Assembly (NCBI RefSeq): GCF_003130705.1 | Contig: NZ_CP021354.1 | Span: 3,596,001-3,660,000 of the forward strand | Length of the DNA stretch: 64,000 nt | Source: Rhodococcus oxybenzonivorans | GTDB taxonomy: Bacteria; Actinomycetota; Actinomycetes; Mycobacteriales; Mycobacteriaceae | Direction of reading: 5' to 3' | In this document: piece by piece, positions 51,862-63,644 of the stretch | How positions within the stretch are numbered: the first letter of the stretch is position 1 | Layout of the letters: every line of letters starts with the position of its first letter | Notes under the pieces: generated by a model | Database searches by the model: none | The model's input: only the letters and a program-made list of their open reading frames with translations | What the model was told of the DNA's origin: nothing | Position numbers and translations under genes: made by a program

Positions 51862-53970
51862 ATGACTTCTATCACCACAGCATTCGCCGACGAGGTCGTG
51901 ACGAACGCGTACACCAAGATCGTGGCAGTCCCGGGCATCGAGGGTCCGGTCGCCCTGATCACGCTCGACAACGGTTTCGACCACACCAAGCCGTCGTCGT
52001 TCGGCCCGAGCGGCCTCGCTGCCCTCGACGCAGCCCTGGAAGAGGCCTTCGCGGCGAACCCGGTTGCGGTCGCGATCACCGGCAAGCCGTTCATCTTCGC
52101 TGCCGGCGCCGACCTCAAGGGCGTCCCGAGCATTACCGACCGCGAGCAGGCGCTCGAGCTCGGCCGGTTGGGTCACAGGGTGTTCCGTCGCCTGCGTGAG
52201 TCCTCCGTGCCGACCTTCGCCTTCGTCAACGGGGTCGCGCTCGGCGGCGGTCTCGAGGTCGCGCTGCACAGCCACTACCGCACGGCATCCGAGAGCGCCG
52301 GCGCGCTGGGTCTGCCCGAGACCTTCCTCGGTCTGGTCCCCGGCTGGGGCGGAACACAGCTGCTGCCCAATCTGATCGGGCCCTCGAACGCGGTGACCGT
52401 CGTCCTCGAGAATGCGCTGAACCAGAACAAGATTCTCAACCCGAAGAAGGCTCTCGAGCTCGGTGTCGTCGATGCCGTGTTCGGTTCGGCCGACTTCCTC
52501 GAGCAGTCCTTCGCTTGGGCGGCACAGGTTCTCGCGGGTGAGATCACTCCGTCCCGTCCCGAGATCGATCGGGGTCAGGGCTGGGACGAGGCAATCTCGC
52601 GCGCGAAGGCCATCGTCGAAGGCAAGACGAAGAACAACGCTCCCGGACCGGTCAAGGCCGTCGAGCTGCTGGAATTGGCTCGCAACACCGACCTCACCGA
52701 TCCGGCGTCGCTCGACAAGGGTTTCGCCGCCGAAGACGAAGCTCTCGCCGACCTTCTGCTGGCGGACGAGCTCCGCGCCGGGCTGTATGCATTCGACCTG
52801 GTGAACAAGCGGGCGAAGCGTCCCGCGGGCGCGCCGGACAAGTCCCTCGCACGCAAGGTCACCGGCGTCGGCATCGTCGGCGCCGGCCTGATGGCCAGCC
52901 AGCTCGCCATGCTGTTCGTGCGGCAACTGAAGGTTCCGGTGATCCTCACCGACATCGACCAGGAGCGCATCGACAAGGGTGTCGGCTACGTCCACGGTGA
53001 GATCGACAAGCTCCAGGGCAAGGGGCGGCTGTCTCCCGACGCCGCGAACCGCCTCAAGGGCCTGGTATCGGGATCGCTGGACAAGTCCGCCTTCGCGAAG
53101 ACCGACTTCGTGATCGAGGCCGTGTTCGAAAATCTCGATCTGAAGAAGAAGATCTTCGCGGAACTCGAGGAGTACATCGCTCCCGAGACGATCCTGGCGA
53201 CCAACACGTCTTCGCTGTCGATCACCAAGATGGCCGCGGACCTGAAGCACCCCGAGCGGGTCGTCGGCTTCCACTTCTTCAATCCTGTTGCGGTCCTCCC
53301 GCTGCTCGAGGTGATCAAGGGTGAGAAGACCGACGACGCCACTCTGGCAACGGCATTCGCGACCGCGAAGGCGCTGAAGAAGTCGGCCGTCGGTTCCGCC
53401 GACCTGCCCGGCTTCGTTTTCAACAGGCTTCTGATCCGCACCCTCGGTGAGGTGATGAACGCGGTGGACGAGGGCACCCCGTTCGAGGTGGCCGACAACG
53501 CCATCGCCGAACTGGGCATGCCGATGACGCCCTTCACGCTGCTCGCACTCGTCGGACCGGCGGTCGCGCTGCACACCGGTGAGACGCTCGCCGAGGCGTA
53601 CCCCGAGCGGTTCCACAACTCCCCCGGGCTCGAGGCATTGGTCGAGGCCAAGAAGCCCGCGGTGTGGAGCTACGGCGCCGACGGAAAACAGGTCGTCGAC
53701 CCCGAGGTCGCCGAATTGTGGAAGCAGGGCGACAAGGCGTCCACGTCCGAAGAGGTTCTGGAGCGCACTCGTCGCGCGTTCGCCGAAGAGATCCAGATCA
53801 TGCTCGACGAGGGTGTCGTCGCCGCGGCCGAGGACATCGATCTCTGCCTGATCCTGGGCGGCGGGTTCGGTTTCTGGAACGGTGGCATCACGCCGTACCT
53901 GGACCGCACGGGCACCTCCGAGGCAGTCAACGGGAAGCGGTTCCTGGCGCCGGGCGTCGCAAGCGTCTGA
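51862..53970 (+). CDS. fadB: Fatty-acid oxidation multifunctional protein FadB
   Basis: 702 residues. The N-terminal enoyl-CoA hydratase/isomerase domain (about 1-200) contains PFIFAAGADLKGV and FVNGVALGGGLEVALH plus GLPETFLGLVPGWGG; the central 3-hydroxyacyl-CoA dehydrogenase NAD domain starts GVGIVGAGLMASQLAML near residue 334, and HFFNPVAVLPLLEVI (about 473) leads into the C-terminal dehydrogenase domain. It catalyses hydration and oxidation of the acyl-CoA. It is fused to fadA by zero-base spacing, and its transcript ends at a long hairpin. Confidence 0.96.
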   Translation: MTSITTAFADEVVTNAYTKIVAVPGIEGPVALITLDNGFDHTKPSSFGPSGLAALDAALEEAFAANPVAVAITGKPFIFAAGADLKGVPSITDREQALELGRLGHRVFRRLRESSVPTFAFVNGVALGGGLEVALHSHYRTASESAGALGLPETFLGLVPGWGGTQLLPNLIGPSNAVTVVLENALNQNKILNPKKALELGVVDAVFGSADFLEQSFAWAAQVLAGEITPSRPEIDRGQGWDEAISRAKAIVEGKTKNNAPGPVKAVELLELARNTDLTDPASLDKGFAAEDEALADLLLADELRAGLYAFDLVNKRAKRPAGAPDKSLARKVTGVGIVGAGLMASQLAMLFVRQLKVPVILTDIDQERIDKGVGYVHGEIDKLQGKGRLSPDAANRLKGLVSGSLDKSAFAKTDFVIEAVFENLDLKKKIFAELEEYIAPETILATNTSSLSITKMAADLKHPERVVGFHFFNPVAVLPLLEVIKGEKTDDATLATAFATAKALKKSAVGSADLPGFVFNRLLIRTLGEVMNAVDEGTPFEVADNAIAELGMPMTPFTLLALVGPAVALHTGETLAEAYPERFHNSPGLEALVEAKKPAVWSYGADGKQVVDPEVAELWKQGDKASTSEEVLERTRRAFAEEIQIMLDEGVVAAAEDIDLCLILGGGFGFWNGGITPYLDRTGTSEAVNGKRFLAPGVASV

Positions 53971-54020: not shown

Positions 54021-56720
54021 TCAGGCGACTGGGACGCTGTTCGCCGCGCTCAACGCCTGCCGGGCGTAGGCCCGTACGTCGGCATCGGTGTCGTCCAGGG
54101 CCTCGGTCAAAGCCTGAGCCGCAGTCCGATCGCCGGCCCACCGTCCGAGTGAGAGCACGGCTGCCTTCCGCACATCGAGGTGCGGATCCTCCAATATTTC
54201 CGCGAGAGCGGGCACGGCAATGCCCGGGTCCGCTCCGGCCAGTCCGCGTGCTGCCCCCTGCCGTATCTGCCAGGCGGATTCGCGCAGTGCCGTGACGACG
54301 AGGGCGACATCGTCGTCGCGGCACCCCAATCCGGCGAATGCCGTCAGTGCCGCTGCACGCACCAGCGGGTCGCGGTCATCGGTCAACTCTCGCACTGCGT
54401 CGAGTCCACCGAGACCGATGGTGGCGAGCCCGTGCGCCACCGTGATCCGCACTTCCCGGTTCTCGTCGTGTGCCCCCGACGCCACCGACTCCCACTTGTC
54501 CAGCGACACCAGGCCTCGCACCGCTTCGATCCGAACGTGGTGATCGGAGTCGGACAACGCCGTCAGGAACTGCTCTGCCGACCCCGCGTGCAGTGCGCGC
54601 AGCACGTCGATCACCGCGGCCCGAACCACGGCGTCACCCGACCCCAGATGCGCCTCGAGCCCAGCGGCAGAGGTGAGCACCTCGACCAGTTCGCGCAGTC
54701 CTTCGGCGGCGGCGCGGCGAACGGTGACGGCTTCGTCGGCGAGAGCCGCCAAGAGTGCTCCGGTGAAGCCGTCGGGAGTTCCCTCGGTCAGCACCGACAG
54801 TGCGGTCACCCGGACCTGGGGGTCGTTATTTCGGAGGTACGGCTCCAGCTCGCCGATGCTGGGTGCATCGAGGCCGAGCAGCGCGACGAGGGCGGGCGAC
54901 GACGGTTCCTGCCGGACCGGCGCGGCGATACGCGAACGCTCCTCGACCGGCGCGCGTCCTCCGACCAGCGGCGGCTGAGTCACCGCGACCACCGTCTGGT
55001 CCTGCGGCGGAAGGGAATCGAGGCCCGGAACCGAAACGAAGTAGGGTGCGACCGGCCTCTTGAAGAACTCCATCTCCCCGTTCTCCCCGCGACGCAGGTT
55101 CAGGTGATACCCCCATTCCTCGTCGCCCGACTCCGGTAGGTCGGCGCGCTCGTGGTAGAGCCCCCAGCGGCTCTCGGTTCTGGTGAGGGAACTGCGGGAG
55201 GCCATCTCGGCGCAGTCGCGAATGAACGTGACCTCCGCGCAACGCATCAACTCGTGCGGGGTGGTGGCGCCCATCTCGGCGATCTCGCGCTCCATCCGTT
55301 CGAAGGTTTCCACGGCAATGGACAGCTTGGTGGCCGTCTTCGGCGGCGCGACGTAGTCGTTGACGAATCGGCGCAGCTTATATTCCACCTGCGGCTGCGG
55401 GGGGCCGCCCGGGTTGCGCAACGGCCGGTAGATCAGCTCGTGCGCCTCCTTCAACTGGTCTTCGGGCAGCAGGGTGGGCGCGGGGATACCGGGCAGCGTG
55501 CCGGTCGCGTGTGCCCCGGCGAGGTCGCCGTAGACGAACGCGCCGATCATGTAATTGTGCGGAACGCAGGCGAGGTCGCCCGCGGCGTACAACCCGGGAA
55601 CGGTGGTGGCGCCGTGCTCGTCCACCCACACTCCGGACGCGGAATGCCCGCTGCAGAGTCCGATTTCGGAGATGTGCATCTCGATGTCGTGACTGCGGTA
55701 GTCGTGACCGCGGCCCGCGTGGAAGGTGCCGCGGGTGGGACGCTCGGTGGTGTGGAGGATCGATTCCAGGGTGTCGAGCGTTTCCTCCGGAAGGTGACTC
55801 ACCTTGAGATAAATGGGCCCACGGGCCGACTCGATTTCGCTCTTGACCTCGCTCATCATCTGCCCCGACCAGTAGTCGGAATCGACGAACCGTTCACCGT
55901 GCGCGTTGACCTGGTAACCGCCGAACGGGTTGGCGACGTAGGCGCAGGCAGGCCCGTTGTAATCCTTGATGAGCGGATTGATTTGGAAGCACTCGATGCC
56001 GCTGAGTTCTGCGCCGGCATGGTAGGCCATCGAGTAGCCGTCGCCGGCGTTCGTCGGATTCTCGTAGGTGCCGTACAGGTATCCGGAGGCCGGTAGTCCC
56101 AGTCGGCCGCAGGGACCGGTCGCCAGGATCACCGCTTTCGCGCCGACTGCCACGAACTCCCCCGTGCGGGTGTTCAGCGCAGCGGCCCCGACGGCCCGGC
56201 CGTTCTCCGTGAGGACGCGAACGGGCATCAACCGGTTCTCGATGCGGATCTTCTCCCGCATCTTCCGCTGCCGCAGCACCCGGTACAGAGCCTTTTTCAC
56301 GTCCTTGCCCTCGGGCATCGGCAGCACATAGGAACCGGAGCGATGCACGCGCCGCACCGCGTACTCTCCGTACTCGTCTTTCTCGAACTTCACTCCGTAC
56401 TTCTCGAGGCGCTGCACCATGGCGAAGCCGCGGGTTGCGGTTTGATAGACCGTGCGCTGATTGACGATTCCGTCGTTTGCCCGGGTGATCTCCGCGACGT
56501 AGTCCTCGGGTTCGGCCTTGCCGGGAATGACCGCGTTGTTGACGCCGTCCATGCCCATGGCGAGGGCCCCGGAGTGCCGCACGTGTGCCTTTTCCAGCAG
56601 CAGGACGTTCGCCCCGTTCTCGGCTGCAGTCAGGGCAGCCATCGTGCCTGCTGTGCCACCGCCGATGACCAGTACATCGCAGTCGAGACGCACGGTCTCG
56701 TCGAGGTCGGGGATGTTCAT
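54021..56720 (-). CDS. AprA-like flavoprotein with C-terminal HEAT-type repeats
   Basis: 899 residues, ATG 56720 overlapping the ATPase stop as ATGA. Residues 1-600 form a fumarate-reductase/APS-reductase-family flavoprotein: FAD motif VLVIGGGTAGTMAAL at 17-31, RHSGALAMGMDGVNN at 48-62 as in AprA (SGAVAQGLSAIN), IKDYNGPACAYV, and GLYAAGDLACVPHNYMIGAF, which parallels the AprA region carrying its catalytic His. Residues about 607-899 are nine helical repeats of the form D-x2-VR-x2-A-x3-L (HEAT/PBS-lyase type), unusual in this family. Together with the ferredoxin it should act on a substrate imported by the adjoining ABC system. Sulfite/APS chemistry is possible, not shown. Confidence 0.85.
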   Translation of the reverse strand: MNIPDLDETVRLDCDVLVIGGGTAGTMAALTAAENGANVLLLEKAHVRHSGALAMGMDGVNNAVIPGKAEPEDYVAEITRANDGIVNQRTVYQTATRGFAMVQRLEKYGVKFEKDEYGEYAVRRVHRSGSYVLPMPEGKDVKKALYRVLRQRKMREKIRIENRLMPVRVLTENGRAVGAAALNTRTGEFVAVGAKAVILATGPCGRLGLPASGYLYGTYENPTNAGDGYSMAYHAGAELSGIECFQINPLIKDYNGPACAYVANPFGGYQVNAHGERFVDSDYWSGQMMSEVKSEIESARGPIYLKVSHLPEETLDTLESILHTTERPTRGTFHAGRGHDYRSHDIEMHISEIGLCSGHSASGVWVDEHGATTVPGLYAAGDLACVPHNYMIGAFVYGDLAGAHATGTLPGIPAPTLLPEDQLKEAHELIYRPLRNPGGPPQPQVEYKLRRFVNDYVAPPKTATKLSIAVETFERMEREIAEMGATTPHELMRCAEVTFIRDCAEMASRSSLTRTESRWGLYHERADLPESGDEEWGYHLNLRRGENGEMEFFKRPVAPYFVSVPGLDSLPPQDQTVVAVTQPPLVGGRAPVEERSRIAAPVRQEPSSPALVALLGLDAPSIGELEPYLRNNDPQVRVTALSVLTEGTPDGFTGALLAALADEAVTVRRAAAEGLRELVEVLTSAAGLEAHLGSGDAVVRAAVIDVLRALHAGSAEQFLTALSDSDHHVRIEAVRGLVSLDKWESVASGAHDENREVRITVAHGLATIGLGGLDAVRELTDDRDPLVRAAALTAFAGLGCRDDDVALVVTALRESAWQIRQGAARGLAGADPGIAVPALAEILEDPHLDVRKAAVLSLGRWAGDRTAAQALTEALDDTDADVRAYARQALSAANSVPVA

Positions 56721-57514
56721 CGGTTCTCCGGATCGTTCGTCGTCGGGGCGTCATCGGTCTGTTCCAGCGCCGCCAGTACCTCGTCGCGTGCGGCTCGGGT
56801 TTCGGTGTCGCCGAGGAACTCCCGCTTGCGCGGGTGGGGAATGTCCACGAGCGCCCGCAGTGGTCTGCCCGCGCCGCCCAGGACCGCCACCCGGTCTCCG
56901 AGCAGGACCGCCTCGTCCACGTCGTGGGTCACGAAGACCACCGTCGTGGGGTGGGTGCTCCAGGTGTCGACGAGAAGCCGCTGCATCACGCCGCGGGTCT
57001 GCGTGTCGAGAGCGCCGAACGGCTCGTCCATCATCACGGCGCGGGGTGCGCCGGCGAGACCACGCGCCAACTGCACACGTTGTCGCATGCCGCCGGAGAG
57101 GTTCTTCGGGAGAAAGTCTCCGAACCCGGTGAGACCGACTTCGTCGATCCAGCGGTCGGCAGTGGCCCGGCGACCCTTCCGCGGCTCACCGCGAAGCGCC
57201 AGAGCAAGTTCGATGTTCGAGCGCACGCTGCGCCACGGCAGCAGAGCGTTGTCCTGAAACACCACAGCCCTGTCCCGGGACGTCGACACCACCGACTCAC
57301 CGTCCGCGACCACCCGGCCGGCGGTGGGTGCCAGCAACCCGGCCAGAGCCCGGAGCACTGTCGATTTACCGCAACCGGACGGCCCCGTGAGTACGAGGAT
57401 CTCACCCGGCACCACGGTCAGCGACAGCGAGCGGATGACCGGGGCTCCGGTGTACGACAGTGTGACGTCGTCGAGTATGAGTGACATTCCGGTCGCGAGC
57501 GTGGTGGCGGTCAT
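56717..57514 (-). CDS. ABC transporter ATPase, NitT/TauT (SsuB/TauB) type
   Basis: 265 residues from ATG 57514 (ATGA overlap with the permease stop); an internal ATG at 57487 is possible. Walker A is LTGPSGCGKST, the signature NLSGGMRQRVQLARGLA, Walker B AVMMDEPFGALD and the H-loop FVTHDVDEAVLLGD. The sequence order and the LLPWRSVRSNIELAL Q-loop are those of nitrate/sulfonate/taurine importers. It powers uptake through the adjacent permease. The long frame that continues upstream is a shadow of the permease gene. Confidence 0.94.
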   Translation of the reverse strand: MTATTLATGMSLILDDVTLSYTGAPVIRSLSLTVVPGEILVLTGPSGCGKSTVLRALAGLLAPTAGRVVADGESVVSTSRDRAVVFQDNALLPWRSVRSNIELALALRGEPRKGRRATADRWIDEVGLTGFGDFLPKNLSGGMRQRVQLARGLAGAPRAVMMDEPFGALDTQTRGVMQRLLVDTWSTHPTTVVFVTHDVDEAVLLGDRVAVLGGAGRPLRALVDIPHPRKREFLGDTETRAARDEVLAALEQTDDAPTTNDPENR

Positions 57515-58371
57515 GCGCGCTCCCCTCGGGGCAGCCAGCGGGTGACACGCCTGCCGAGCAGCTCCACCGCTGCCGATGTGGCGAAGCCCAGGATGCCGAT
57601 GGTGATCATGCCGACGAATACACCGGGATAGTCGACGATCGTGTAGGCCTGCCAGGTGCGGTAGCCGACGCCGAGCCGGCCGGAGATCATTTCCGCGGAG
57701 ATGACGCAGATCCACGCGACACCGATCCCGACCGACAAGCCACCGAACACTCCGGGCAGGATCCCCGGAAGCACCACCCGGGCCAGCACATCCCAGCGCC
57801 CGCCGCCGAGGGTGCGCACCGAGTCTTCCCACAGCGTGGGCAACGCCCGGACCGCGTGCCGGGTGCTGACCATGATCGGAAAGAATGCGGCCACGAAGGT
57901 GATGAAGACGATCCCGGCCTCGTCGCTCGGAAACAACAGGATCGCAACGGGGACCACGGCGATCGCCGGAATCGGCCGGGCCAGTTCGGTCAACGGTCCG
58001 AGGACGTCGGCGAACAGCGTCGATCTGCCGAGCGCGATCCCGGCGGCCACACCGATCACGGTGGCGAGTCCGAACCCGCTGAGAATGCGGATCAGGGACT
58101 GGCCCAGGTCGAGGTAGAAGAGGTCGTTGCGCAGCTGGGTGCCGAACGCGGACACGACATCGGTGACGGTGGGAAGGGTGTCGAATCGCAACCACAACCG
58201 CACGTCGTTGGCCGTCAGCAGCTGCCACGCTGCGATGGCGGCGACGACGGACGTGATGCGCAGAAGGCGGGATCGCCACGACGATGCCGACGCGGGCAGC
58301 GGTGCCGGATCGGGCTGCAGTACCGAAGCCTCGGATTCGATCGACATGATCGACGACTGCAGGGTGGTCAC
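57511..58371 (-). CDS. ABC transporter permease, NitT/TauT (SsuC/TauC) type
   Basis: 286 residues, GTG 58371 overlapping the binding-protein stop as GTGA. Six hydrophobic helices; the EAA loop is VRTLGGGRWDVLARVVLPGILPGVFGGL (about residues 181-208), the contact site for the ATPase. A cytoplasmic N-terminal tail of about 35 residues precedes the first helix. Family membership (BPD_transp_1, sulfonate/nitrate/taurine group) is clear; the transported substrate is not readable from the sequence. Confidence 0.93.
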   Translation of the reverse strand: MTTLQSSIMSIESEASVLQPDPAPLPASASSWRSRLLRITSVVAAIAAWQLLTANDVRLWLRFDTLPTVTDVVSAFGTQLRNDLFYLDLGQSLIRILSGFGLATVIGVAAGIALGRSTLFADVLGPLTELARPIPAIAVVPVAILLFPSDEAGIVFITFVAAFFPIMVSTRHAVRALPTLWEDSVRTLGGGRWDVLARVVLPGILPGVFGGLSVGIGVAWICVISAEMISGRLGVGYRTWQAYTIVDYPGVFVGMITIGILGFATSAAVELLGRRVTRWLPRGERA

Positions 58372-59798
58372 TGCCGAACCTCCTCCACAGCGCGGTCGTA
58401 CGTGACAACCGTTCCCGCCGGGTGGACGCGCAGGTAGCGGCCGGCGGCGGCGTCGGTGGTGAAAGGCAGGAAGGTGTCACCGTCGCGCACCCACACCGCC
58501 TTGTCCGCGAACCAGCGGGTGCCCAATTCGGCATCGGGAATGTACGCGCTGCGGACGTCACGGCCCTCGGCGCGTGCCTGTTTGACCGCCCGGAGCAGGC
58601 ACGTCGGGCTCGCCGCAGGCTGGGTCTGCGTCGCATCTGCGAACCAGACTTCCCCGGCCAGAGCCGGATCGGTCGCAGGCGTGCCGCACACAGGATCGGT
58701 GCCGGTCACCGCTGTGGGGCTGCCAGGCGTCGTGACCGTGGCATCGTAGTTCTGCCCCTCGGCATCGAATGCCGCGCGCAGAGGCGCATCGTCGACGAAC
58801 CCCTCGACATCGAGATCCGCGAAGTCACCGATCGATTTCAGATACGGGACGTCTGCCTTCAACGCTTCGACCAGTTCGGGTCGGAGCGTGGTGTCGAACG
58901 TCGTACCACCGGGCCCGTTGTACAGGTAGACCACCTCCTGCGGCAGTCCGCTGTCTTCGGCGACGATACGTGCGGCCTCGAGTGGCTCGGTCCGGATGAA
59001 GTGCGTGGCGTCGAGTTGTGCACGGAGGAACGCATCGACGACTTCGGGGTGCTCGTCCGCGTAGGCCTCCCGCACGACGACCCCGTGCAGGGTGGGTGTG
59101 TTCAGCTCTGCGCCGTCGTAGAGCAATTTCGCCTTGTCCTGGAACACGAGAAGCCCGGGCCAGGCCACGAACTGTGACAATGCCTCGACCTGACCCGATT
59201 CGAGGGCGGAGGATCCGACCGGCGGTTGCTGGTTGAGAACCTCGACGCCGGTGCCCGGCTCGATTCCGGCGCGGTCGAGTGCACGGACGAGGGTGCCGTG
59301 CCCGGCAGAACCGACGCTGGCAGACACTTTCCGGCCCGCGAGATCGGCGAGCGTGGTGGCGGGAGAGCTAGGAGGGACGACCACCATGTTCAGGGCACCC
59401 TCCGGGTTGTACCCGGTGACCGACACGATCTCGGTTTTCGATCGCGGATTCGCCTGTGTGCGTGAGCCGTTGATCAGCATGGGATAATCACCCATCGAGC
59501 CGATGTCGATCTTCTCGGCCACCATCTGCGCGGTGATCGGCGCGCCGGTGTCGTAATCCTGCCATTCGACGGAGTACTTCGTCCCCGTCTCCTCGGTCAG
59601 TTCTTGCAGACGCTGTTCGAGGTAGCCCCTGGCTCGCAACAGTGTTCCGGCGGTGACCGTGTTGATCGTCTTCGATTGGTAACCGATCACTACGGGCACT
59701 GCATCGTCGCTCCCGGCGGTGGTGTCTTCCAGCGAGCAGCCGGTCGCGAGCAGTGCGACCGCAGCGGTCAGCACGAGAGAGGAGTAGGGACGCAACAT
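58368..59798 (-). CDS. ABC substrate-binding lipoprotein with extra C-terminal domain
   Basis: 476 residues, ATG 59798. The lipobox is ALLATGC with Cys21. Residues about 35-360 form a NitT/TauT-family binding protein (VVIGYQSKTINTVTAGTLLRARGYLEQRL, KIDIGSMGDYPMLINGS, GRKVSASVGSAGHGTLV). Unusually, about 109 further residues (368-476) follow, beginning DPVCGTPATD and including PTCLLRAVKQAR, GTRWFADKAVWVRDG and GRYLRVHPAGTVV. That segment resembles NosL-type metal-binding domains, with two Cys (371 and 400) as possible ligands; this match is tentative. The usual length of such binding proteins is 320-360 residues. Confidence 0.88.
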   Translation of the reverse strand: MLRPYSSLVLTAAVALLATGCSLEDTTAGSDDAVPVVIGYQSKTINTVTAGTLLRARGYLEQRLQELTEETGTKYSVEWQDYDTGAPITAQMVAEKIDIGSMGDYPMLINGSRTQANPRSKTEIVSVTGYNPEGALNMVVVPPSSPATTLADLAGRKVSASVGSAGHGTLVRALDRAGIEPGTGVEVLNQQPPVGSSALESGQVEALSQFVAWPGLLVFQDKAKLLYDGAELNTPTLHGVVVREAYADEHPEVVDAFLRAQLDATHFIRTEPLEAARIVAEDSGLPQEVVYLYNGPGGTTFDTTLRPELVEALKADVPYLKSIGDFADLDVEGFVDDAPLRAAFDAEGQNYDATVTTPGSPTAVTGTDPVCGTPATDPALAGEVWFADATQTQPAASPTCLLRAVKQARAEGRDVRSAYIPDAELGTRWFADKAVWVRDGDTFLPFTTDAAAGRYLRVHPAGTVVTYDRAVEEVRQ

Positions 59799-59816
59799 GT
59801 TTTCGAAGTCTTTCGC

Positions 59817-60044
59817 TCAGCGGAGGAGGTACGGCATGTTCACGGTGACGGCGCCGGTGGGACAGCGGGCTGCGCACGGGCCGCAGTACCAGCATTCGTC
59901 GACGTGCATGAAGGCCTTGCCGTTGTCCGGGTTGATGGCCAGCGAGTCGAGAGGACAGATTTCGACGCACAGCGTGCACCCCTCGATGCACAGTGACTCG
60001 TCGATGGTGACCGGTACGTCGGCGCGTGCGTTGACAAGTGTCAT
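59817..60044 (-). CDS. 2[4Fe-4S] ferredoxin, AprB-like
   Basis: A 75-residue protein with eight Cys in two clusters: 19, 23, 26 and 30 (C-x3-C-x2-C-x3-C-P, one residue longer than the normal first spacing) and 51, 54, 57 and 61 (C-x2-C-x2-C-x3-C-P). The second motif HVDECWYCGPCAARCPTGAV is close to the corresponding part of APS-reductase beta subunits. It lacks the C-terminal tail by which AprB wraps around AprA. ATG 60044 overlaps the gntR stop as ATGA. It probably passes electrons to or from the AprA-like flavoprotein encoded downstream. Confidence 0.93.
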   Translation of the reverse strand: MTLVNARADVPVTIDESLCIEGCTLCVEICPLDSLAINPDNGKAFMHVDECWYCGPCAARCPTGAVTVNMPYLLR

Positions 60045-60850
60045 GTGAGCTCCCAGTTCGAAATTTCGGGACGTCGGATGAGGTTGCTGCGCATGGTGAT
60101 TCGATCACCGCGCATGCGGATGTACTCGAGGTCGACGGGACGTCCGTCGACGAGTCGGGTGAGACGCTCGAGCAACAGGAGCGCGGCCCCGTCCGGGGTC
60201 TGTAGGTTCGCCGCCGAGTGCGCATCCGCATTCACCGATTCGATCGCCACATCCGCTGAACCGAGTGGTTGCCCACAGACCTCCTCGATCAGCGTGAAGA
60301 CGTCGTTGTGCTCGAGGTCGCGGCCGAGGATGTTCCGCCCGATGTCGGGCACCAGATAGGTGAGGTCGAGACTGAGCGGGAGGTCACCGAGATAGCGGAC
60401 ACGTTCGATGTAGACCGCGGATTCCCCTGCTGCCAGCTGCAATCGACGCACCACGGCCGGTGGTGGCGTGATCTCCCTGGCCACGCGCACGTCGTTGCGC
60501 ACCTCACCGTGTTCCTTCAAGGTCTCCCTCAGTCCCAGCAGGGCGTCGAGCCCGTGGTCGTACTTGCGCCGCGCCACGTGAGTGCCCACCCGGGGCGCAC
60601 GGTCGATCAGACCCTCCTGCTTGAGGAGCGCGAGCCCGTCCCGCACCGCGTTCCGAGACACCCCGAATTCGTGCGCCAACTCCGATTCCGGAGGCAGTCC
60701 GCGGTCGGCGAAAGAGTCCGCGTGGATCTGCTGCCGCAAGAGGTCGGCGAATCGGCGAGCCTCGTCGGCGCGAGATCTGCGGGCAGAGGGCTGGCCGTGC
60801 AGGGCAGTCGGAGCCACCACCGCCTCTGCATCGTCCGCGGCGAGCGCCAT
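60041..60850 (-). CDS. GntR-family regulator with UTRA domain (HutC type)
   Basis: 269 residues from ATG 60850 with a GGAGGAAACGC leader; the upstream in-frame ATG is less well placed. An N-terminal winged helix (FADLLRQQIHADSFADRGLPPESELAHEFGVSRNAVRDGLALLKQEGLIDRAPRVGTHV spans residues 33-91) is joined to a ligand-binding UTRA domain ending YIRMRGDRITMRSNL. It is first in the six-gene operon with the ferredoxin, ABC importer and AprA-like gene, and is likely its ligand-responsive repressor. A candidate operator was not identified with confidence in 60851-60950. Confidence 0.92.
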   Translation of the reverse strand: MALAADDAEAVVAPTALHGQPSARRSRADEARRFADLLRQQIHADSFADRGLPPESELAHEFGVSRNAVRDGLALLKQEGLIDRAPRVGTHVARRKYDHGLDALLGLRETLKEHGEVRNDVRVAREITPPPAVVRRLQLAAGESAVYIERVRYLGDLPLSLDLTYLVPDIGRNILGRDLEHNDVFTLIEEVCGQPLGSADVAIESVNADAHSAANLQTPDGAALLLLERLTRLVDGRPVDLEYIRMRGDRITMRSNLIRRPEISNWELT

Positions 60851-61099
60851 GCGTTTCCTCCGTCGATTGTGCAGTGTGCTGAACGACAAGAGACGCTAAC
60901 TGCTGTTCGACCACCGGAAGTCGCGCCTACGGACCACCCGGCGCGGCCTCCGCGAATCTGCCGGTTGGGTCCCGTGGAGTGCCCCGCTCACCTGGATAAA
61001 CGCGACTACGGCGCCCCATTACGCCACCGCTGAACCGGAAGCAGAGTTCGAATCACGGTGATCCGAAGTCGAGCGCAGAACCCGGTCCCGGCCCGATAT

Positions 61100-61145: not shown

Positions 61146-62153
61146 GTGTACACACCCCCACGCCCGATCGCTGTAACACTCGCCGTGGCCGGCACCGCGC
61201 TGCTCGTCGCCGCCTGCTCGTCCGGCGACGGCGGCACGAGCGCGGAAGGCGGCGGAGCCGGCTTCCCGGTCACGATCGAGAACACCTTCGGATCCACCAC
61301 GATCGACGCCGCCCCGGAGCGCATCGTCACCCTGGGCTGGAACGCCCAGGACGTCGTCTACGCGCTCGGCGAGACCCCCGTCGGCATGCCAAAGTACTCC
61401 TACGGCGCCGAGGCGAACGGAGTGATGCCCTGGCTCCAGGACCGCTACGACCCCAGCCGGACCACACTCCTCGACACCGCCACCACCATTCCCGTCGAGC
61501 AAGTGGCCTCGCTGGCACCCGATGTCGTCCTCGCACCCTACGAGGGATTCGACCAGGGCACCTACGAAAAACTTTCCGCGCTCGCCCCCACCGTCGCCTA
61601 CCCGGACAAGGCGTGGCAGACCAGCTGGCAGGACCAGACCACCCTGATCGGTCAGGCGCTCGGTAAGACCGCCGAGGCAGAGGCTCTCGTCACCGGCCTC
61701 GACGACCGGCTCGCGCAGACCGCCGCAAAACACCAGGAGTTCGCCGGAAAGACGGTGTCGGTGGTGAACTTCGATACCGACGCTGCCACGGTGAACGTCT
61801 ACATGCCCTCCGACCCCCGCGTGCAGGTGCTCACCGAGCTCGGATTCACAGTCGCACCCGGTGTGTCGAAGCTCGCCGAGTCGAATCCGGACAAGTTCTT
61901 CGCCGACATCTCGGTGGAGAACATCGCCGATATCGACGCCGATGTCGTGGTCGCGTTCGTCGCCGACGACAGCACCGTCGCGGCCAACCCTGCCTACGCG
62001 AATCTCGGCGCCCTCGGCCGGGGAAGCGCGGTGACATTGTCGGATACGAAGGTGATCGCAGGACTCAGCCAGACCAGCGTGCTTGCCACTCCCTGGGCGC
62101 TCGAGAGGCTGACGCCGCAATTGAGCGAGGCGGCGAACAAGGCCGGTGCGTGA
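61146..62153 (+). CDS. Siderophore (Fe3+) substrate-binding lipoprotein
   Basis: 335 residues, GTG 61146 with AAGGAG 9 nt upstream. Signal peptide and lipobox LVAAC with Cys24. The mature protein has the two-lobe FecB/FhuD-like (PF01497-type) pattern: APERIVTLGWNAQDVVYALG, VASLAPDVVLAPY, a long connecting helix, and a C-terminal lobe (ENIADIDADVVVAFV, TPWALERLTPQL). The IdeR box and this family indicate capture of a ferric siderophore. No permease or ATPase gene accompanies it here, so it must use a transporter encoded elsewhere. Confidence 0.93.
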   Translation: MYTPPRPIAVTLAVAGTALLVAACSSGDGGTSAEGGGAGFPVTIENTFGSTTIDAAPERIVTLGWNAQDVVYALGETPVGMPKYSYGAEANGVMPWLQDRYDPSRTTLLDTATTIPVEQVASLAPDVVLAPYEGFDQGTYEKLSALAPTVAYPDKAWQTSWQDQTTLIGQALGKTAEAEALVTGLDDRLAQTAAKHQEFAGKTVSVVNFDTDAATVNVYMPSDPRVQVLTELGFTVAPGVSKLAESNPDKFFADISVENIADIDADVVVAFVADDSTVAANPAYANLGALGRGSAVTLSDTKVIAGLSQTSVLATPWALERLTPQLSEAANKAGA

Positions 62154-62246: not shown

Positions 62247-63644
62247 ATGACACAGATGTCCGAAAGACACACCGCCAAGGTCATCGGGGTCACGGTCGCG
62301 GCAGCGGTCGGGGGTTTCCTGTTCGGATTCGACAGCTCGGTGATTAACGGCGCCGTCGATTCCATCCAGGGGCACTTCGAACTGAGTGCGTTCTTCACCG
62401 GCTTCGCGGTGGCCATCGCGTTGCTCGGATGCGCTGTGGGCGCGTGGTTTGCGGGCCGCCTCGCAGACCGGTGGGGCCGCAAGAAGGTGATGCTGCTGGG
62501 TTCGGTGTTGTTCGTCGTCTCGTCGATCGGCGCCGGACTCGCCTTCAGCGTTCCCGACCTGATGCTCTGGCGCATTCTCGGCGGCCTCGGAATCGGTATC
62601 GCGTCTGTCATTGCGCCGACCTACATCGCGGAGATCGCACCGGCACGCTACCGCGGCGCGTTGGCGTCGCTGCAGCAGCTGGCGATCACTCTCGGCATCT
62701 TCGCCGCGCTGCTGTCGGACGCGGTGCTGCAGAATGCCGCAGGCGGCGCATCGAACGAGTTGTGGCTGAACCTCGACGCGTGGCGCTGGATGTTCATCGT
62801 CGGCGTGGTCCCCGCGGTCGTGTACGGCATTATCGCGCTGATGATTCCCGAGTCTCCGCGCTACCTGGTCGGCAAGCACCTCGACCAGGAAGCGGCCGAC
62901 ATCCTCGCGAACATCACCGGCGAAGTCGACCCGCAGGGGCGCGTATCCGAGATCCGGGTGACCCTTCGCCACGAATCGACGGCGTCGTTCGACGACATTC
63001 GCGGCCCCAAGTTCGGGCTGCAGCCCATCGTCTGGGTCGGTATCTTCATGGCCATCTTCCAGCAGTTCGTGGGTATCAACGCGATCTTCTACTACTCAAC
63101 CACGCTCTGGAAGTCGGTGGGCTTCACCGAGAACGAGTCGTTCGTTACGTCGGTGATCACCGCGGTCATCAACGTCGGTATGACATTCGTCGCCATCCTG
63201 TTCGTCGACCGGATCGGCAGGCGCATCCTGCTCATGGTCGGCTCGCTCGGCATGTTCGTGAGCCTGCTGACGGCCGCAATCGCCTTCTCCCAGGCGAAGG
63301 GCAGCGGTGACGACGTCGTGCTCCCCAGCCCGTGGGGGGCAGTCGCCCTGATCGGCGCCAACCTGTTCGTGATCTTCTTCGCCTCCACCTGGGGCCCGGT
63401 CATGTGGGTGATGCTGGGCGAGATGTTCCCCAACAACATGCGCGCCTACGCACTCGGCATCAGCACGGCGGCGAACTGGATCGCCAACTTCACCGTCACG
63501 CTGTCGTTCCCGCCGCTGACCCGTTCGGTGGGCCTGTGGTTCCTGTACGGCCTGTTCGCGTTCTTCGCGCTGCTGTCGTTCTTCTTCGTCCGGTCGAGGG
63601 TCCGGGAGACGAAGGGGATGGAACTCGAGGAGATGACGACCTGA
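62247..63644 (+). CDS. MFS sugar porter
   Basis: 465 residues, ATG 62247 (ATG 62256 is possible). Twelve transmembrane helices. Sugar-porter signatures: GGFLFGFDSSVINGAVDSI near residue 22, DRWGRKKVM at 72-80, RILGGLGIGIASVIAPTYIAEIAPARYRG (about 109-137), PESPRYLVGK, QQFVGINAIFYYSTTLW and GPVMWVMLGEMFPNNMRAYA near the end. These fit proton-coupled hexose or inositol symporters. Substrate unknown. The gene stands alone, ends in a classic terminator and precedes dxs on the opposite strand. Confidence 0.95.
   Translation: MTQMSERHTAKVIGVTVAAAVGGFLFGFDSSVINGAVDSIQGHFELSAFFTGFAVAIALLGCAVGAWFAGRLADRWGRKKVMLLGSVLFVVSSIGAGLAFSVPDLMLWRILGGLGIGIASVIAPTYIAEIAPARYRGALASLQQLAITLGIFAALLSDAVLQNAAGGASNELWLNLDAWRWMFIVGVVPAVVYGIIALMIPESPRYLVGKHLDQEAADILANITGEVDPQGRVSEIRVTLRHESTASFDDIRGPKFGLQPIVWVGIFMAIFQQFVGINAIFYYSTTLWKSVGFTENESFVTSVITAVINVGMTFVAILFVDRIGRRILLMVGSLGMFVSLLTAAIAFSQAKGSGDDVVLPSPWGAVALIGANLFVIFFASTWGPVMWVMLGEMFPNNMRAYALGISTAANWIANFTVTLSFPPLTRSVGLWFLYGLFAFFALLSFFFVRSRVRETKGMELEEMTT

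Follow-up and report, generated by a model that had tools for sequence, protein, structure and literature searches.

The ssu and tau operons (SsuEADCB and TauABCD) each combine an ATP-binding cassette (ABC) importer of the NitT/TauT type with a single desulfonating enzyme that gives an assimilable product. These enzymes are oxygen-dependent: one is a monooxygenase using reduced flavin mononucleotide (FMNH2), the other a 2-oxoglutarate dioxygenase. Here we describe a six-gene cassette in a 64,000-nucleotide stretch of the Rhodococcus oxybenzonivorans genome (the window, on contig NZ_CP021354.1) that shares the layout of one such importer and one enzyme per operon, but whose enzyme is of the flavin/Fe-S type and is related to adenosine 5'-phosphosulfate (APS) reductase, AprAB. 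On our best reading it is a sulfonate-type uptake operon in which the APS-reductase-related enzyme replaces the oxygenase. In APS reductase, Asn74 and His398 are in contact with the sulfate oxygens of the bound APS; Arg265 and Trp234 act via water and Arg265 also at the phosphate and ribose (PMC2211403). The Methanothermococcus thermolithotrophicus enzyme for 3'-phosphoadenosine 5'-phosphosulfate (PAPS), MtPAPSR (8a8o), is a characterised assimilatory member of the AprAB type (PMC10322725). In a very similar case, plasmids of Acidithiobacillus (Fervidacidithiobacillus) caldus were described in 2025 as carrying a ferredoxin/APS reductase/GntR module with a sulfonate transporter, for which organosulfonate assimilation was predicted (PMC12375680).

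It is worth noting how far this last study anticipates our case. Plasmid pTcM1 (our locus L094) holds the flavoprotein, ferredoxin, HEAT and GntR genes of the cassette family, and in the accessible text the prediction comes without residue analysis, the NosL-like domain, the HEAT repeats or the wider distribution (PMC12375680). An earlier reading of the window made from the sequence alone (the sequence-only reading) had presented the gene set as a candidate new system, but as a set of genes it is not new: NCBIfam already has the flavoprotein family, and organosulfonate uptake is already predicted in the 2025 paper. In the literature searched, which leaves out most subscription journals, no experimental study of the enzyme family was found, and the names PRK13800, PRK08275, NF010374 and NF006131 appear in a single paper, which deals with fungi. 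PMC8557817, in which the term fumarate reductase does not occur, PMC7661421 and PMC10433963 contributed nothing of use.

The gene coordinates confirm the six co-directional minus-strand genes and the junctions that had been reported (Table 1). The regulator and ferredoxin genes overlap by 4 bases, an 18-bp gap separates the ferredoxin gene from that of the binding protein, and the remaining three junctions are again 4-base overlaps. Since Pfam or NCBIfam matches were obtained for 6/6 genes, and since the same order is kept in 74/80 related actinobacterial loci, the operon is more than a chance arrangement. These loci are the best 80 of at least 590 confirmed relatives from a pattern scan of genome contigs; the GntR gene comes first in 74 of the 80. 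Conservation in other genomes had been set beforehand as a test that could refute the reading, which stands after this result. Five of the exceptions are interrupted by a contig end (L044, L056, L060, L066 and L068), and the sixth, L071, is a 4.3-kb contig of a metagenome-assembled genome in which the ferredoxin gene directly precedes that of the flavoprotein, perhaps through an assembly join. The commonest junction is a 4-base overlap, seen between binding protein and permease in 65/74 and between permease and ATPase in 59/74 loci with starts chosen by script. Among the matches listed the closest loci are from Rhodococcus; that of R. wratislaviensis has 91% identity. The distribution is patchy, the NF010374 cut-off being exceeded in 7 of 198 genomes sampled from the phylum and in 16 of 61 family genomes (source genome included). 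Two loci carry insertions that are uninformative on the substrate. In Nocardia salmonicida a transposase-like insert (L018:6780-8204; OrfB/TnpB type by eye) lies between permease and ATPase, and in Antrihabitans sp. YC2-6 a 4.8-kb block (L014:1125-5911) separates ferredoxin from binding protein and contains, by eye, another NitT/TauT-like importer, an asparaginase-like gene and an M20-type hydrolase gene.

The flavoprotein exceeds the equivalog cut-off of NF010374 (1196 bits) over residues 1-892, HEAT extension included, and also the cut-off of NF006131, at 861 bits. Its best match in the PDB is the alpha subunit of MtPAPSR (E=8e-56), followed by AprA (1.6e-30) and succinate dehydrogenase (SDH; 3e-24). 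MtPAPSR resembles the window pair in having a FAD subunit of the fumarate reductase family and a small subunit with two [4Fe-4S] clusters, and in the assimilatory role that we propose here. The sequence-only reading had likened the pair to the two subunits of APS reductase. As a likeness this is supported, together with the linkage to a NitT/TauT-type importer in a single conserved operon, but AprA and AprB proper they are not: the flavoprotein stays below both AprA cut-offs (NF005331, 264.6 vs 557 bits; TIGR02061, 130.2 vs 641.75 bits), the ferredoxin below that of AprB, and Arg265 and Trp234 are replaced. The motifs cited for the likeness, SGALAMGMDGVNN, PHNYMIGAF and CWYCGPCAARCPTGA, are indeed present in the flavoprotein, but they are signatures of its own family and not exact AprA motifs, the equivalents in Archaeoglobus AprA being SGAVAQGLSAIN and PHKFSSGSF.

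A tree was made from 36 rows: 23 family members; AprA, PAPS reductase and an AprA-like protein, L108; and, under the label SDH, ten further flavoproteins of actinobacterial genomes, of which six or more are of the classical type. All 23 family members form one group (support 100/100), and AprA, PAPS reductase and L108 form another (100/99). The SDH-type rows stand apart, except for the long row L115, which falls between; the root and the long branches are unsure. A place among ordinary fumarate reductases had been named in advance as a result that would speak against the reading, and the family has a clade of its own. L108 itself belongs to an AprA/AprB-like pair (L108:5435-7503) in G003, a 1.8-Mb genome of the same phylum. 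This pair retains Arg265 and Trp234, resembles the methanogen PAPS reductase, and adjoins a putative sulfite reductase gene, judged by eye.

In the alignment of the 23 family sequences, which come from three phyla, 187 columns are invariant. The places of AprA Asn74 and His398 are taken by Asn61 and His388 in 23/23, as in AprAB (1jnr, 2fja), and those of Arg265 and Trp234 by Leu250 and Tyr219, also in 23/23. At the 388 place, His is absent from all ten SDH-type rows. MtPAPSR shares the Asn, but it keeps Arg265 and Trp234, has Lys at the His398 place and co-occurs with sulfate-activation enzymes, whereas the window enzyme lacks this Arg and Trp, has the His, carries HEAT repeats and is encoded together with an importer. 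Judged by the alignment, then, the family is distinguished by His388 combined with the loss of Arg265 and Trp234, and its site would be a sulfo-handling one with the nucleotide side gone.

The ferredoxin has eight Cys, as needed for two [4Fe-4S] clusters and as in AprB, and they are invariant in 15 aligned sequences from three phyla. So is Trp52, which lies in C-W-Y-C at the place of AprB Trp48 (C47-W48-x-C50 in 1jnr_B, the same CWxC). The AprB cut-off is missed (TIGR02060, 29.8 vs 135.65 bits), and the C-terminal tail of AprB is absent, the protein having 75 residues against 150-166 in solved AprB structures.

For the importer, the sulfonate/nitrate/taurine type that had been proposed holds as far as relatedness to SsuA and TauA goes, but binding protein, permease and ATPase all stay under the substrate-specific cut-offs. 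The best PDB matches of the binding-protein profile are TauA (6.6e-27) and SsuA (6.8e-24), while the window protein scores 132.5 vs 163.5 bits for SsuA_fam and 78.1 vs 304.25 for taurine_ABC_bnd. The closest NCBIfam families are SaoP, ntrB and TauC for the permease and the taurine ATPase for the ATPase, all below cut-off. An additional C-terminal part of about 110 residues is present in 17/17 aligned binding proteins and is shortest in Tsukamurella. In five proteins scanned with Pfam NosL (cut-off 24), those of Acinetobacter (25.2) and Pseudanabaena (28.2) exceed it, those of Methylobacterium (19.6) and Sinorhizobium (19.1, over 30 residues only) do not, and the window copy gives no match; the source genome has zero NosL matches even at E<=10. 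Neither this part of the binding protein nor the upstream boxes described below had been noticed in the sequence-only reading.

Outside the actinobacteria the cassette is found on plasmids, with relatives at E<=1e-60 in 51 of 72,556 plasmid records. Of the 18 records examined, 17 are non-actinobacterial (Cyanobacteria and Proteobacteria), and in 17/17 of these a flavoprotein of 547-589 residues without the HEAT part is accompanied by the ferredoxin and a separate HEAT gene. The HEAT part is fused to the enzyme in one lineage but encoded by its own gene in others, a pattern which suggests that the two work together. The importer genes (binding protein, permease, ATPase) are annotated next to these in 14/17; the exceptions are L091 with binding proteins only, L094 with ATPase and permease about 7 kb off, and L106 with an unannotated gap. 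The NifA-dependent alkane-sulfonate ABC operon of Paraburkholderia phymatum (PMC8305402) is not among the 51 matches and was not used. A DUF971/GBBH-like gene is annotated in 10/17 copies and an Mrp/NBP35 gene in 3/17 (13/17 together). Pfam confirms GBBH-like_N in two of the ten former genes, and in one of the three latter, that of Pseudanabaena, it finds an NUBPL P-loop and FeS_assembly_P. These genes may form an iron-sulfur maturation module resembling the HCF101, Mrp-NBP35 and DUF971 carriers; the likeness, including that to plastid HCF101, presumably lies in domain make-up. They are accessory only, lying outside the actinobacterial six-gene cassette. FdxA and ferredoxin-NADP reductase adjoin one plasmid copy. 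On pTcM1 a 1153-residue FAD-dependent oxidoreductase, in which Pfam recognises only Pyr_redox_2, lies next to FdxA beside the cassette (L094:10574-14035) and is a candidate electron donor.

The neighbours of the plasmid copies were scored by annotation keywords (sulfonate, sulfate, sulfite, sulfo-, taurine, TauD, SsuA, SsuD, mercapto, sulfurtransferase) within about 9 kb, or less at a record end, with the cassette genes excluded. A sulfur gene is near the cassette in 10/17 records (L090, L091, L093, L096, L100, L102, L103, L104, L105 and L106), though weakly so in L105, with a PhnD/SsuA label. TauE sulfite exporters flank L090, L102 and L103, YeiH/putative sulfate exporters L090 and L102, TauABC and SsuD L100, and TauD with sulfonate ABC genes L096 and L106. 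In Mesorhizobium, Ssu/Tau-type systems and the cassette stand side by side. As a control, six of these plasmids were sampled away from the cassette, with one 50-kb stretch per plasmid and two 20-kb windows per stretch (the dropped last 10 kb are keyword-free). A keyword was found in 2/12, namely a sulfate importer (Leptolyngbya) and hpsN/hpsO (Cupriavidus), which gives a one-sided Fisher value of 0.028 for records that are not independent (three are from Sinorhizobium).

Regulators of the plasmid copies are of the GntR/UTRA (5), Crp/Fnr (8) or LysR (2) type, with none adjacent in L091 and L101. Both LysR proteins (Pseudanabaena and Leptolyngbya plasmids) resemble the cassette binding protein in their C-terminal half (E=4.7e-49 and 3.4e-56), and the imported ligand therefore probably doubles as regulatory signal. 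In the actinobacteria, 74 regions before the regulator gene were compared (73 loci and the window), which are related, so that the counts are not independent events. Boxes were found through a k-mer list from an inverted-repeat search, which itself produced no clear candidate (the best 5-base palindrome word occurs in 7/74, shuffled maximum 4-6). Exact GGTGGCGYAAT occurs in 49/74 regions and two GGCGYAWT boxes 52-55 bp apart in 40/74, against a maximum of 1 in each case over 20 shuffled sets and 0/74 in both coding controls. In the window, box A and the middle CCAGGT are present, with no clear second box. In 15 genomes, a three-element pattern occurs once each in 6, placed at the cassette by contig coordinates, and not at all in the other 9, source genome included; a two-element pattern gives 10 matches in 9 genomes, of which two, both in G198, are not the cassette box, and the single match in the source genome lies at the operon. 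In the source genome the exact box matches at 7 places vs 3 for a reversed control pattern, so the six away from the operon are mostly chance. One of the six, in L130, lies between genes, next to one of the GntR type. The paired array was not found in five GntR-bearing proteobacterial plasmids, with a lone box at -307 in Aquabacterium. The boxes are likely read by a dedicated regulator, most simply GntR. An upstream RNA element was also considered and dropped, as six loci searched whole against Rfam gave no match.

Taken together, the cassette probably serves sulfur acquisition, in agreement with the earlier choice of sulfur as the nutrient, and is best read as a self-contained sulfur-scavenging regulon, widely conserved and apparently uncharacterised. 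Its substrate would be an oxidised organosulfur anion, namely a sulfonate or perhaps a sulfate ester. GntR/UTRA, or another factor reading the dedicated box array, would switch the regulon, and the TauA/SsuA-like lipoprotein with its NosL-like domain would bring in the anion with the ABC permease and ATPase. The AprAB-like enzyme, consisting of FAD subunit, ferredoxin and HEAT scaffold, would then pass two electrons to the flavin, whose N5 would attack the sulfur of R-SO3-, the R group leaving and sulfite being released to the ordinary assimilatory sulfite reductase. As the actinobacterial cassette has one enzyme only, this enzyme should yield an assimilable product. That it frees sulfite from the imported R-SO3- anion by reduction is possible, and after a recheck, which lowered our estimate, we place it somewhat short of an even chance. 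A wider proposal, which we offer with considerable doubt, is that the family are oxygen-independent, ferredoxin-driven reductive desulfonases that kept the sulfo-holding His and dropped the nucleotide site, with reduced FAD taking SO3 directly, and that they occur in three or more phyla, frequently on plasmids, some of them symbiotic, together with their own importer, sensor and HEAT scaffold. If true, soil and aquatic bacteria would have a route from organic sulfur to sulfite without an oxygenase, misleading fumarate reductase annotations would be corrected, a conserved orphan transporter would be explained, and there would be a natural example of APS reductase chemistry moved to new substrates. 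The residue pattern gives one clear, testable prediction.

Several observations weigh against our best reading. Asn61, His388, Leu250 and Tyr219 are found by motif in 80/80 actinobacterial proteins, but that count is partly selected, the search patterns having included MGMDGVNN and CVPHNYMI. Asn at the Asn61 place is common to 6/10 SDH-type rows, and the His398 place is Lys in PAPS reductase, itself sulfite-releasing, and Tyr in L108. Neither Asn61 nor His388 alone thus marks sulfo chemistry, and the argument from kept residues is weaker than at first impression. In the literature searched, no precedent was found for a reduced flavin that cleaves a plain C-SO3 bond reductively, and such cleavage would require a good leaving group. 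The scanned actinobacterial flanks are not common between loci and are uninformative, the control set for sulfur neighbours is small (12 windows), and 7/17 plasmid copies have no sulfur gene by keyword (L092, with a TSUP transporter only, L094, L095, L098, L099, L101 and L107). The unexplained NosL-like domain could hint at a metal ligand. This domain, the keyword-free copies and the importer scores below every substrate-specific cut-off speak for a non-sulfur function, in which another small anion or a metal complex is imported and the enzyme reduces a nitro, N-oxide or metal-bound compound. Since the binding protein has TauA and SsuA as its nearest PDB relatives and SsuA as its nearest NCBIfam family, and since 10/17 plasmid copies have sulfur neighbours, we consider it rather unlikely. 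About as improbable is a sulfur-linked but oxidative function, with the flavoprotein oxidising or dehydrogenating an imported organosulfur compound or sulfite, the ferredoxin removing electrons and other enzymes releasing sulfite. AprAB runs in both directions (PMC2211403), and the sulfite exporters adjoining some plasmid copies would also fit sulfite handling; however, no second enzyme is present in the actinobacterial cassette, the two-cluster ferredoxin and the FdxA and ferredoxin-NADP reductase beside one copy fit electron delivery better, and the loss of Arg265 makes oxidation of AMP plus sulfite unlikely.

The two remaining alternatives concern the identity of the enzyme. NF010374 and NF006131, whose cut-offs are exceeded, carry the name fumarate reductase/succinate dehydrogenase flavoprotein subunit, which would make it a dicarboxylate enzyme. 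The family nevertheless forms a separate clade, the window enzyme reaches only 138 bits against an sdhA/frdA cut-off of 567, the cassette has no FrdB-type subunit, and the importer is not of the dicarboxylate type. The A-(S/P)-R-D motif of 6/10 SDH-type rows, whose Arg we take to be the catalytic residue of succinate dehydrogenase and fumarate reductase, reads DYWSG-(Q/D)-M in 23/23 family members, and the family also lacks the HxxxR loop of the displayed SDH rows. With SRD and HxxxR absent, this identity is rejected on tree and motifs; the reading, largely refuted, is very improbable. Least credible is a role in sulfate assimilation as APS or PAPS reductase, although the closest solved relative is just such an assimilatory enzyme (PMC10322725). 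Arg265 and Trp234, kept in the Methanothermococcus enzyme, are replaced in 23/23, the cassette lacks sulfurylase and APS kinase, and a linked importer would make no sense. The source genome has an assimilatory CysH over cut-off (244 vs 235.3 bits) and so can reduce sulfate to sulfite without the cassette. This identity is rejected on such genome content and on the lost Arg and Trp. No dsrA match exceeds its cut-off there, with three weaker matches, and an SsuD-like protein scores 441.6 bits, below the cut-off of 518.2.

Table 1. Features of the cassette (window positions), with two plasmid-borne regulator fusions (positions in the named loci).
Feature	Position	Strand	Basis or remark
GntR/UTRA (HutC-type) regulator, first gene	60041..60850	-	Pfam UTRA 103.8 bits, GntR 48.5 bits
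Ferredoxin, 75 aa, two [4Fe-4S], AprB-like core without the long AprB tail	59817..60044	-	Fer4 Pfam matches
SsuA/TauA-like substrate-binding lipoprotein, 476 aa	58368..59798	-	NMT1 46 bits; SsuA_fam 132.5 bits
NosL-like C-terminal domain of binding protein	58371..58703	-	alignment to relatives; window copy itself without score
ABC permease, NitT/TauT type, GTG start	57511..58371	-	BPD_transp_1 73 bits
ABC ATPase, NitT/TauT type	56717..57514	-	ABC_tran 105 bits
Flavoprotein-HEAT, 899 aa, related to AprA and PAPS reductase alpha	54021..56720	-	NF010374 (PRK13800) 1769 bits
HEAT-repeat part of flavoprotein	54045..54869	-	Pfam HEAT_2 100.7 bits
Upstream boxes GGTGGCGTAATG ... CCAGGT, operator candidate	60990..61028	-	conserved box pattern
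LysR regulators fused to a domain homologous to the binding protein	L090:6655-8670 (Pseudanabaena); L102:6307-8343 (Leptolyngbya)		built-in ligand sensor

The source genome has 8.01 Mb in 4 contigs. By best family match, with NCBIfam scores below cut-off, the convergent gene on one side of the operon (51862-53970) is FadB/FadJ-like and the divergent gene upstream (61146-62153) encodes a binding lipoprotein of the iron-siderophore type. A relative of the latter gene is found before the cassette in L010, L011 and L030 as well. Beyond it, the gene at 62247-63644 looks by eye like a sugar-type transporter of the major facilitator superfamily.

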